A DNA stretch of 64,000 nt, from assembly GCF_016887565.1 (NCBI RefSeq), contig NZ_CP069396.1, positions 6,616,001 through 6,680,000 of the forward strand, read 5' to 3'. Below the pieces are notes generated by a model. It worked only from the letters and a program-made list of their open reading frames with translations. It did no database searches and had not been told where the DNA came from. Position numbers and translations under genes: made by a program. Source of the DNA: Archangium violaceum (lineage in GTDB: Bacteria; Myxococcota; Myxococcia; Myxococcales; Myxococcaceae). How positions within the stretch are numbered: position 1 is the first letter of the stretch; each line of letters opens with the position of its first letter. Shown piece by piece: positions 52,937 to 56,122 of the stretch.

Positions 52937-54790
52937 GTGAATGTTTCTCAGCTGAACAGAGGATTGGGACAGAAGGTGCTCGTCCTGGCGGTCATGGCCG
53001 CGCTGATGACGAGCCTGATTCCCGCCATGGCCTCCGCCGCCGATCGCGGCGCCTGGGCGGCGTACATCAACTACGTCGTCGGCGATTCCGTCACCTATGG
53101 AGGCAAGGCGTACGACTGCCGTCAGGCACATCAGTCGCTGCCCGGGTGGGAGCCGCCCAATGTTCCGGCCCTGTGGTTGGAGAAGACCGGCGGCACCGTG
53201 GACGTCCAGGCGCCTTCCGCTCCGACGGGGCTGACCTCCACGAGCAAGACGTCCAACAGCGTCTCGCTGACCTGGACGGCGTCGACGGACAACGTGGGCG
53301 TCACCGGCTACGAGGTGTTCATCGGCGCCGGGACGACCGCGGCGGCGACGGCCACCGGGACGAGCGTCACGGTGACGGGCCTGTCGGCGAACATGACGTA
53401 CACCTTCACGGTGAAGGCGAGGGATGCGGCGGGCAATCGGTCCGCGGCCAGCAGCGCGTACAGCGTGACGACCGACCCGCAGAGCAACGACACCCAGGCG
53501 CCGACCGCTCCGACGTCCCTGCGCTCGACGGGGACGACCAGCAACAGCGTCTCGCTGACCTGGACGGCCTCGACGGACAACGTGGCCGTCACCGGCTACG
53601 AGGTGTTCACCAACGGCGGGACGACCGTGGCGGCGACGGCCAGCGGCACGAGCGCGACGGTGACGGGCCTGGCCGCGAGCACGACGTACAGCTTCACGGT
53701 GAAGGCGAAGGACGCGGCGGGCAACCGGTCCGCGGCCAGCACCGCGGTGAGCGTGAAGACGCTGGATGCTCCCTCGAGCGACATCCCGAGCAAGATCCTC
53801 GTCGGCTACTGGCACAACTTCGACAACGGCTCGGGCTTCATCCGCCTGCGCAACGTGTCGCCCAAGTGGGATGTGATCAACGTCTCCTTCGCCGAGCCGA
53901 CGAATGGCTCCACGGGCGGGACGATCGGCTTCACGCCGTACAACTCCACCGAGGCGGACTTCAAGGCGGACGTGGCCTACCTGAAGAGCCAGGGCAAGAA
54001 GGTGCTGATCTCCATCGGCGGCGCCAACGGCCAGGTCCGTCTGGAGACCACGGCGGCCCGGGATGCGTTCGTGAGCTCGATGAACGCCATCATCGACAAG
54101 TACGGGTTCGACGGAATGGACATCGACTTCGAGGGCCACTCCCTGTCGCTCAACGCCGGGGATGGGGACCTCAAGAATCCGACGACCCCCGTCGTCAAGA
54201 ACCTGATCTCCGCCATCCGCTCCATCCATGACCGCGTGGGCCCGAAGTTCGTGCTCACGATGGCGCCGGAAACCTTCTTCGTGCAGCTCGGCTATGCGTT
54301 CTACGGCGGGACCTGCTCCGGGTGTGACAACCGGGCCGGTGCCTACCTGCCGGTCCTCTACGCCGTCAGGGACATCCTCGACTGGCTGCAGGTCCAGGAC
54401 TACAACTCCGGACCCATCACGGGACTCGACGACCAGTACCACACCATGGGCAACGCGGACTTCCATGTCGCGATGACGGACATGCTGCTGACCGGCTTCC
54501 CCGTGGCGAAGAACCCGAACAACTTCTTCCCCGCGCTCCGTCCGGATCAGGTGGTCATCGGGCTGCCGGCCAACGTCAATGCCGGCGGTGGCTACACGCC
54601 TCCCGCCGAGGTGCAGAAGGCCGTGGATGCCCTGGTGAAGGGCATCCCGATCGGCTCCTACTCGGTGCGCAGCAACCCGGCGAACAACAAGAGCTTCCGG
54701 GGACTGATGTCCTGGTCGGTAAACTGGGATGCGTTCGCGAACTTCGAGTTCACCAACAGCCACCGGCCCTACCTGGATTCGCTGAAGTAG
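52937..54790 (+). CDS. Secreted GH18 chitinase with chitin-binding and two FN3 domains
   Basis: 617 residues starting at a GTG with GGGAGG six bases upstream. Signal peptide to about residue 34 (MASAADRG). Carbohydrate-binding module of the CBM5/12 type at about 35-85 (WAAYINYVVGDSVTYGGKAY, W residues). Two fibronectin type III domains at about 92-180 and 185-275, nearly identical to each other. GH18 catalytic domain from about 285 to the end: SIGG strand VLISIGGANGQV and the DxxDxDxE motif FDGMDIDFE with catalytic Glu399. Substrate chitin; likely feeds on fungal or insect chitin. No regulator next to it. Confidence 0.95.
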   Translation: MNVSQLNRGLGQKVLVLAVMAALMTSLIPAMASAADRGAWAAYINYVVGDSVTYGGKAYDCRQAHQSLPGWEPPNVPALWLEKTGGTVDVQAPSAPTGLTSTSKTSNSVSLTWTASTDNVGVTGYEVFIGAGTTAAATATGTSVTVTGLSANMTYTFTVKARDAAGNRSAASSAYSVTTDPQSNDTQAPTAPTSLRSTGTTSNSVSLTWTASTDNVAVTGYEVFTNGGTTVAATASGTSATVTGLAASTTYSFTVKAKDAAGNRSAASTAVSVKTLDAPSSDIPSKILVGYWHNFDNGSGFIRLRNVSPKWDVINVSFAEPTNGSTGGTIGFTPYNSTEADFKADVAYLKSQGKKVLISIGGANGQVRLETTAARDAFVSSMNAIIDKYGFDGMDIDFEGHSLSLNAGDGDLKNPTTPVVKNLISAIRSIHDRVGPKFVLTMAPETFFVQLGYAFYGGTCSGCDNRAGAYLPVLYAVRDILDWLQVQDYNSGPITGLDDQYHTMGNADFHVAMTDMLLTGFPVAKNPNNFFPALRPDQVVIGLPANVNAGGGYTPPAEVQKAVDALVKGIPIGSYSVRSNPANNKSFRGLMSWSVNWDAFANFEFTNSHRPYLDSLK

Positions 54791-54871: not shown

Positions 54872-55180
54872 TCAACCGAGCTCGGCGATCGTGGTCTGCC
54901 GGATGGTCAGGGTCGTGGTGCAGCCGAGGGCGCTGGGGCAGGCGTCGACGGCGCTTCCCCTCGTGGTGAGAATGGTCAAGGTGGGGGGCCGGGTCGTGAA
55001 GACAGTGGGACGGGTGATGACGGGCACTCCGCCACCCACGACGTCCTCCAGGTCGTCCTCACCGAGCTCGGTCATCGGTCTGCCGGAGGGGTTCTCGGGG
55101 AGTGTGTGGAGTTGCTCCGAGGTGAGGCGCGCGCGGAACTCCGGATCCTTCCACGCACGGATGATGGTCTCTGGGTTCAT
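54872..55180 (-). CDS. Orphan mersacidin/lichenicidin-type (class II) lanthipeptide precursor
   Basis: 102 residues from the ATG at 55180 with an AGGAAG ribosome binding site. The leader (1-50) opens MNPETIIRAWKDPEFRARL, continues LPENPSG, and ends with an acidic stretch and a double-Gly cleavage site (ELGEDDLEDVVGG). This is the pattern of the mersacidin/lichenicidin type II lantibiotic family. The core (51-102) has about 14 Thr, few Ser and two Cys (C81, C87 in CPSALGC). No LanM synthetase, LanT transporter or protease gene is visible in the window; the neighbours are a chitinase and a lipoprotein. Modification would need enzymes encoded elsewhere. Family call from the leader only. Confidence 0.78.
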   Translation of the reverse strand: MNPETIIRAWKDPEFRARLTSEQLHTLPENPSGRPMTELGEDDLEDVVGGGVPVITRPTVFTTRPPTLTILTTRGSAVDACPSALGCTTTLTIRQTTIAELG

Positions 55181-55315
55181 GGGTCTTCCTCCTCGCGGGG
55201 CTCTCATTGGAGAGACTCCCAGCAGATGGAGTCATCTCGCGTCACGTGTGACGCGGGCGTGGCGAGGGCCAGGTCCGTCTCCCACCGTGCTGGTAAGAGG
55301 TAATCTCCCGGTGAC

Positions 55316-56122
55316 ATGAAACGACCCCCCCTCCAGTGGCTTGTCGCGCTGCTGCCGCTCGTCACGGCGGCCTGTGCGACCTCGGCGGCCTACCACCCCC
55401 AGAAGGACTGCGCGGCGGGCAGCCCGGGCGCGTGCGTCGACTGGGGTGACGAGCTGGTCCAGCGGGGCGCGAAGCAGGAGGCCGAGACCGCCTACGGGCA
55501 GGCCTGCGAGGGGGGCATCTCCACCAGCTGCATCACGCAGGGCCGGCTCATGATGGAGCGCGGCGAGCTGGAGGGCGCCGAGCACCCGCTCCGCAAGGCG
55601 TACCTGGAGGAGTTCCCGGAGGCCTACGAGGCCCTGGCGGATCTCTACCAGGCTCGGGGTGGTCCCCAGGAGCTGGAGATCGCCGGGGACTTGCGCTTCG
55701 ACGCGCCCGCCATCGACAAGCCGGCGGTGGAAGCCGTCTATCACTACCGGGTGGGCTACCCGGGGAGCCTCGGGGGCGCGCTGACGTTGAACGTGCAGCC
55801 GATGGCCTTCCTGTCACGTCGGCTGGACATCGGTTTTCACGCCGCCTTCGGCACCGGACCGGCGGAGCTCAACGGCTTCATCGGGTACCAGCACTTCACC
55901 TCCACCTGGGTGGTGCCGTATGCGCGGGTGATGCTCGGCGGGATTCCGGGAGCCCCCTCCGGACAGGGGCTCAACTATGGCGGGGAGCTCGGGCTGAAGC
56001 TGTGCGCGGGACCGATCGGGCACCTGGAGCTCGCCGTCGGCTCCTCGCGAGCCAGTCCCCTCCATGTCTCGGTGGGACTGGGATTGAACGCGATCTTCCT
56101 CCTCCTCCTCGCGGCCCATTGA
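55316..56122 (+). CDS. Lipoprotein with TPR/Sel1-like repeats and beta-barrel-like C-terminus
   Basis: 268 residues. Lipobox TAAC with Cys20. Residues 25-115 have two or three Sel1/TPR-like helical repeats (GDELVQRGAKQEAETAYGQA, GRLMMERGELEGAEHPLRKA). From about residue 120 alternating strands appear (VEAVYHYRVGYPG, RRLDIGFHAAFGTGPAELN, WVVPYARVMLGG), ending in a hydrophobic LGLNAIFLLLLAAH. Function unknown. Divergent from the lanthipeptide gene across 135 bp. Confidence 0.75.
   Translation: MKRPPLQWLVALLPLVTAACATSAAYHPQKDCAAGSPGACVDWGDELVQRGAKQEAETAYGQACEGGISTSCITQGRLMMERGELEGAEHPLRKAYLEEFPEAYEALADLYQARGGPQELEIAGDLRFDAPAIDKPAVEAVYHYRVGYPGSLGGALTLNVQPMAFLSRRLDIGFHAAFGTGPAELNGFIGYQHFTSTWVVPYARVMLGGIPGAPSGQGLNYGGELGLKLCAGPIGHLELAVGSSRASPLHVSVGLGLNAIFLLLLAAH

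Follow-up and report, generated by a model that had tools for sequence, protein, structure and literature searches.

The closest described systems are the prochlorosins and synechococsins of marine picocyanobacteria. In these systems, one class II LanM enzyme (ProcM or SyncM) acts on many precursors that have a common leader and varied cores, and the precursor genes may lie dispersed across the genome or occur singly, as described in the accessible parts of two papers (PMC10783134, PMC7268733). For myxobacteria, lanthipeptide clusters linked to LanT have been described, and the accessible part of PMC3951391 does not describe orphan precursors. No dispersed myxobacterial precursors were found in the accessible part of PMC12328550, nor were dispersed lanthipeptide precursors in myxobacteria found in a search of the open literature covering titles and the beginnings of abstracts. 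The class II peptide LanII-2B of Archangium violaceum has been reported with two of its four Ser/Thr residues dehydrated and two of its three Cys residues cyclised. Its activity was weak, against two Gram-negative species at 130 µM, and the work demonstrates that a class II enzyme of this genus functions in E. coli (accessible part of PMC9576775).

The window analysed here, a stretch of 64,000 nucleotides, comes from an A. violaceum genome that resembles the prochlorosin systems in having one LanM together with unclustered precursors of its leader type; the likeness lies in the leader class and presumes that the enzyme uses them. The precursor gene of the window can be read with good confidence as belonging to a dispersed set of class II precursors, whose products LanM1 would modify and LanT would export in trans. 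Features of the sequence that support this reading are the leader class, a common upstream box, co-occurrence with LanM1, conservation of the gene and of a core motif, and the absence of a local enzyme.

The gene occupies positions 54872..55180 on the minus strand and encodes 102 residues plus a stop codon, with the N-terminus MNPETIIRAWKDPEFR. A longer frame with a second possible in-frame start exists at 55207; the start at 55180 is preferred because of a ribosome-binding site, GAGGAGGAAG (55185..55194, minus strand, read from the sequence), and because of the alignment with relatives. The leader (residues 1-50, to the first GG; 55031..55180, minus strand) matches the mersacidin/lichenicidin-type model TIGR03898 over residues 5-50 with 66.4 bits (E 1.5e-18, cut-off 23.5) and ends in GGG, within the double-Gly site VVGGG at residues 47-51. 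An earlier reading of this DNA from the letters alone (the sequence-only reading) had proposed both the leader type and the double-Gly site, and the profile search bears it out. The leader family and GG site are those of the type 2 lantibiotics of the mersacidin/lichenicidin family; unlike the members of that family, the window precursor has no LanM nearby. The prochlorosin leaders, in contrast, are Nif11 leaders (accessible parts of PMC10783134, PMC7268733), and Nif11 is absent both from the four NCBIfam matches (E up to 1) of the window precursor and from its Pfam search, which gave nothing above cut-off. The NHLP leader model reached 15.5 bits, below its cut-off of 50.9.

Enzyme profiles were run over the whole window genome (G000, one contig of 13,213,980 bases), namely TIGR03897 (LanM), PF05147 (LanC-like) and PF03412 (C39 peptidase), with E thresholds of 1, 1 and 0.01, respectively. 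None of the three has a match in the window, in agreement with the earlier statement that neither LanM nor LanT is encoded there. Over the cut-offs, the genome contains four LanM matches, two of them full (1020.9 and 943.6 bits) and two lower (518.1 and 365.5 bits), as well as six LanC-like and six C39 peptidase matches. A LanM that combines a dehydratase with a LanC domain, as a class II lanthipeptide calls for, is therefore present in the genome; it does not lie near the window precursor, the nearest LanM (LanM1) being 1.30 Mb away. In the LanM1 cluster, at about 7.969-7.975 Mb, a C39-ABC transporter (LanT, with C39 and ABC domains), two LanA precursors and LanM1 stand in a row on one strand, and the LanM1 frame begins about 28 bases past the second LanA. 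LanM1 (7972001-7974811) has the domains DUF4135 (the dehydratase part) and LANC_like. Its zinc motif, WCHG at 948-951 and CHG at 994, has the C-x-CH signature, whereas the zinc ligands of ProcM are all cysteine. The other full enzyme, LanM2, is encoded at 4353827, and its own precursor carries another leader, HILRAWRDAEYF. The two lower matches (877425-880064 and 3501433-3503355; 518 and 366 bits) are divergent LanM-like proteins with no TIGR03898 precursor nearby.

Precursors were counted with TIGR03898 among 150 of 232 candidates in the window genome and 65 of 167 in the family search; the counts are lower bounds because only part of the first-look candidates was scored. A precursor was called an orphan when its contig had no LanM over 700 bits less than 20 kb away, a status that the end of a draft contig can mimic (the contigs concerned in G068 and G070 are only 6.7 and 8.9 kb long). 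The genome-wide check for LanM genes and same-leader precursors suggested by the sequence-only reading yielded, besides the four LanM matches, at least nine precursors over the cut-off in the window genome. Three are no more than 1 kb from one of the two full LanMs; the other six are orphans, at 232105, 3977311, 4274178, 6671031 (that of the window), 7323557 and 8952334. The closest of these orphans is 79.6 kb from a LanM. Within 20 kb of the six, no match to TIGR03897, PF05147 or PF03412 was found, partial matches included; the nearest match to any of the three is a C39 peptidase 27.7 kb from 232105.

Across 96 family genomes, 36 carry precursors, at least 120 in total, of which 41 are orphans and the other 79 have a LanM over 700 bits no more than 20 kb away. 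A LanM over 700 bits is present in 35 of the 36 precursor-bearing genomes, the exception being the fragmented draft G070, and every one of the 96 genomes that has such a LanM also has a precursor. The LanM1 clade has 11 members, with support of 95/95 in a tree built from 38 of the 60 LanMs; the same 11 members are recovered by FastTree on all 60 (0.996). They come from five genomes of the window genus, namely G000, G001 (Archangium lansinium), G002, G004 (A. violaceum Cb vi76) and G005, from G018, and from five of genus g15 (G082-G086; G086 is Hyalangium versicolor). These 11 genomes hold 37 of the 41 counted orphans, up to ten in a single genome (G005), and the remaining four are found in G003, G068, G070 and G110. 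Orphans occur in 10 of the 11 LanM1 genomes versus 4 of the 25 other precursor-bearing genomes (Fisher p 3.7e-5, with kinship ignored, and the shared ancestry of the genera swells such co-occurrence counts). Two further g15 genomes, G019 and G033, have no LanM match at E 1e-60 and no precursor. G004 has LanM1 and no orphan, and its sole precursor adjoins LanM1.

Two leader profiles were built, one from the 24 leaders adjacent to LanM1 and one from 36 distinct sequences among the 48 leaders next to other LanMs; seven leaders beside the sister clade entered neither. In a leave-one-out control, 24/24 and 36/36 were assigned correctly. The LanM1 profile is the better fit for 38 of the 41 orphan leaders, by 7.8 to 38.2 bits, including all 37 in the LanM1 genomes; the three others are those of G068, G070 and G110, all of them genomes without LanM1. 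The window leader scores 85.4 bits on the LanM1 profile versus 58.7 on the other. The 38th leader is a real exception: the orphan of G003 (4665043) has a LanM1-type leader, yet the LanMs of G003 all fall outside the LanM1 clade. Consequently, either retention of such orphans is not strictly dependent on LanM1, or another LanM can act.

The same precursors tend to have a bipartite, promoter-like box upstream. Its form is GTCACA, a spacer of mostly 14 bases and ACTCC[AT][TC]C, and it usually lies 62-81 bases upstream of the start codon. In the window it is GTCACA-N14-ACTCCATC (55225..55252, minus strand), beginning 72 nt before the start codon. Start codons were picked by rule, and the loose pattern GTCACA-N13-15-ACTCC was found in 49 of 62 LanM1-type precursors (22/24 adjacent to LanM1, 27/38 orphans of the 11 genomes and G003). 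Box patterns were defined after inspection of these upstream regions, and the weight therefore rests on the comparisons and not on the 49 itself: the loose box precedes 1 of 58 other precursors, 4 of the 119 control genes drawn from the window and other loci of its genome have it, and 200 shuffles gave a mean of 2.1 of 62, with a maximum of 9. A stricter pattern was found in 16/24 adjacent precursors, 19/38 orphans, 0/58 other precursors and 0/119 control genes. Orphans without the box accordingly number 11 of 38 by the loose pattern and 19 of 38 by the stricter one.

The idea of a box exclusive to a precursor regulon was rejected. The pattern TCACA-N13/14-ACTCCWNC has 15 sites in the window genome (3 for the reversed control), and only 5 precede precursors, while 10 are not before TIGR03898 precursors; several of the latter lie ahead of regulator, lipoprotein or enzyme genes and some within long frames. 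A similar pattern also occurs in genomes without LanM1. In a count across the family with TCACA-N13-15-ACTCCWYC, sites number 15 in the window genome (3 in the control), 13 in the orphan-free G004 (0 in the control) and 10 in G080, a genome devoid of precursors (3 in the control). Since the box also stands ahead of unrelated genes, it is a promoter type common to these precursors and not their private mark. Sites at 676732, 1074751 and 12003818 of the window genome lie ahead of response-regulator-like, lipoprotein-like and secreted-type proteins, as read from the sequence, and the sites at non-precursor genes may mark a wider regulon.

The reading that survives best beside the preferred one is that another LanM of the window genome, either LanM2 at 4353827 or one of the more distant proteins at 877425 and 3501433, modifies the window peptide. 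The presence of two full and two lower-scoring divergent LanMs would allow it, as would G003, which keeps a LanM1-type orphan with other LanMs only. However, it is improbable: the window leader is 26.7 bits better on the LanM1 profile, the LanM2 precursor has a different leader, and only one in 58 precursors outside the LanM1 type has the box.

Conservation of the gene bears on whether it is in use. A syntenic homologue in G005 has 81% identity, an in-frame two-codon indel and a core with 11 Thr, and the loci are 88% identical in DNA over 3.1 kb. Between the two, dN/dS is 0.45 for the leader and 0.46 for the core (point estimates from few changes). Together with GC contents of 0.59/0.56/0.85 at codon positions 1/2/3, these comparisons (synteny, in-frame indel and dN/dS) confirm the predicted frame as a real gene. 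Across 11 homologous pairs, core dN/dS ranges from 0.20 to 2.28, and therefore some cores vary freely. In 9 of the 11 pairs, which are not independent of one another, the leader has diverged less at synonymous sites than the core, possibly through gene conversion between leaders or a constraint on codons. The window gene is flanked by genes for a chitinase (GH18, with CBM5/12 and fn3 domains; 52937-54790) and for a lipoprotein-like protein that has no Pfam match (55316-56122). The lipoprotein gene is also present in G001 and G002, where the 1.5 kb upstream of it contains neither chitinase nor precursor. The draft assembly of G005 has a tandem duplication of the chitinase 3' end and the precursor (contig C3, about 276800-278200; L066:2300-3700). 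In one copy, a 139-nt core-coding segment is inverted (93% complementary, 664 nt between the arms), which leaves a Cys-less core.

Orphans elsewhere are conserved as short units. The gene at 4274178 and its homologues in G001, G002 and G003 (group A) have about 340 bases in common, beginning approximately at the GTCACA box and running beyond the stop codon, with differing flanks; among these four genes, only the G001-G002 pair is syntenic. Other non-syntenic pairs share less (176 bases for 3977311 and its G001 homologue), and in group D homology begins about 33 bases ahead of the leader match. Carriage of the gene by a mobile element was considered as well; no terminal repeats were seen by eye in the four aligned orphan groups.

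The core of the window precursor (52 residues; 54875..55030, minus strand, with presumed cleavage after GG) is unlike those of mersacidin and lichenicidin. It contains 14 Thr, 2 Ser and 2 Cys (C81 and C87), so that the unusual composition pointed out from the sequence alone stands, with the correction that the Cys residues are six apart and not seven. Given this composition, most Thr, once dehydrated, would lack a Cys partner. The conserved motif SAVDACPSALGC (residues 76-87; 54920..54955, minus strand) may hold two lanthionine ring sites: one Ser lies five residues ahead of C81 and another four ahead of C87, a spacing from which rings Ser76-Cys81 and Ser83-Cys87 can be guessed. The motif, SAxDxCPSxx(x)C with Ser or Asn in first place, was found in 10 of the 120 counted precursors. 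All ten are orphans, from six genomes and two genera, and no LanM-adjacent precursor among the 120 has it. In nine aligned motif orphans (that of G086 left out), A77, D79, C81, P82, S83 and C87 are invariant; one member, from G002, has Asn in place of the first Ser. A CPTxxC motif is present in the beta peptides of two-peptide lantibiotics, and the window core resembles them in its CPS-x2-3-C after a Ser ring site and its Thr-rich N-terminal part, a resemblance only and to be taken as a lead. The strings compared are CPSALGC in the window precursor and CPSLFC and CPSVFC in relatives; the string CPTTKC was not found in the papers searched for it.

Other core types were also observed. The cores of three LanM1-type orphans lack Cys. 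Cys-less precursors beside LanM1 in two genera (G018:C2:615580 and G085:C279:39711) have a similar core, IGPDQDL.DF...TPYIRV. A second set of related orphan cores, also from two genera, consists of G000:8952334, G082:7905738, G084:C12, G085:C116, G085:C258 and G086:C101. Their Cys-bearing part has CC[FL] close to its start, and four of the six end in CRDL[ED] plus one residue.

The sequence-only reading had offered modification in trans and a broken cluster side by side. The former is now well supported by a remote locus that combines LanM1 and a C39 LanT with precursors whose leader type and box match those of the window gene. That the window gene is a disused relic of a broken cluster is very unlikely. 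No enzyme lies near it, and signs of decay exist in the family, such as the G005 tandem copy that has lost its Cys-bearing core, the three Cys-less LanM1-type cores and the G003 orphan without LanM1. Against this stand an intact frame with a ribosome-binding site and box, a dN/dS near 0.45 versus G005 (few changes), the core motif kept in ten orphans of two genera, and the lack of even partial enzyme matches within 20 kb of the six orphans. The broken-cluster reading was rejected since the gene is conserved and has a stand-alone promoter-like box; it is a lone gene that has a syntenic counterpart in another species, and five further lone precursors in the genome have its leader type. Equally slight is the chance that the leader serves export alone and the peptide remains unmodified, or mostly linear and dehydrated, as its 2 Cys for 16 Ser/Thr and the Cys-less precursors with similar cores beside LanM1 (G018 615580, G085 39711) might suggest, for both Cys and CPS are invariant in nine aligned sequences in which much of the remaining core varies.

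Under the preferred reading, modification and export in trans by LanM1 and LanT, the orphan would be expressed from its box along with LanA-LanM1. The enzyme LanM1 would bind the orphan leader in trans, dehydrate Ser/Thr and close two rings at SAVDACPSALGC, with several Thr left as Dhb or unmodified, and LanT would cut after GG and export the core. The six scattered substrate genes of the window genome probably share one modifying enzyme, and the orphans are apparently mostly stand-alone transcription units. A secreted peptide directed at other bacteria is a guess at the role of the product. LanII-2B may come from the orthologous LanM1 cluster of G004, whose LanM1 is 79% identical to that of the window genome and whose adjoining precursor has 4 Ser/Thr and 3 Cys after GG, a composition that fits. 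This precursor differs from that of the window in adjoining its LanM and in its core, which has STGC...TCG and not SAxDxCPS.

The dispersed kind of system is already known from cyanobacteria; what is new here is the leader family, the host group and the zinc motif. Substrate numbers are also different, with 6 orphans in the window genome and up to 10 in G005 versus 29 and 79 in prochlorosin-type systems (accessible part of PMC10783134). One large survey capped the precursor distance at seven genes (accessible part of PMC7268733). Neighbourhood mining anchored on LanC overlooks such substrates because the orphans, six of nine precursors in the window genome, sit outside the clusters. For the family, the odds are about even that a single LanM/LanT pair in each genome of three genera (Archangium, Hyalangium and one more) serves lone precursors genome-wide, many of them under one promoter type and each moving as a small box-to-stop unit into differing flanks, which would amount to a dispersed, coordinately switched library that evolved apart from the prochlorosins. 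If so, LanM1 would be a LanM for dispersed substrates with a leader family and zinc motif other than those of ProcM, and would offer a direct test both of one enzyme on many cores and of co-expression of an enzyme and its scattered substrates through a shared promoter type.
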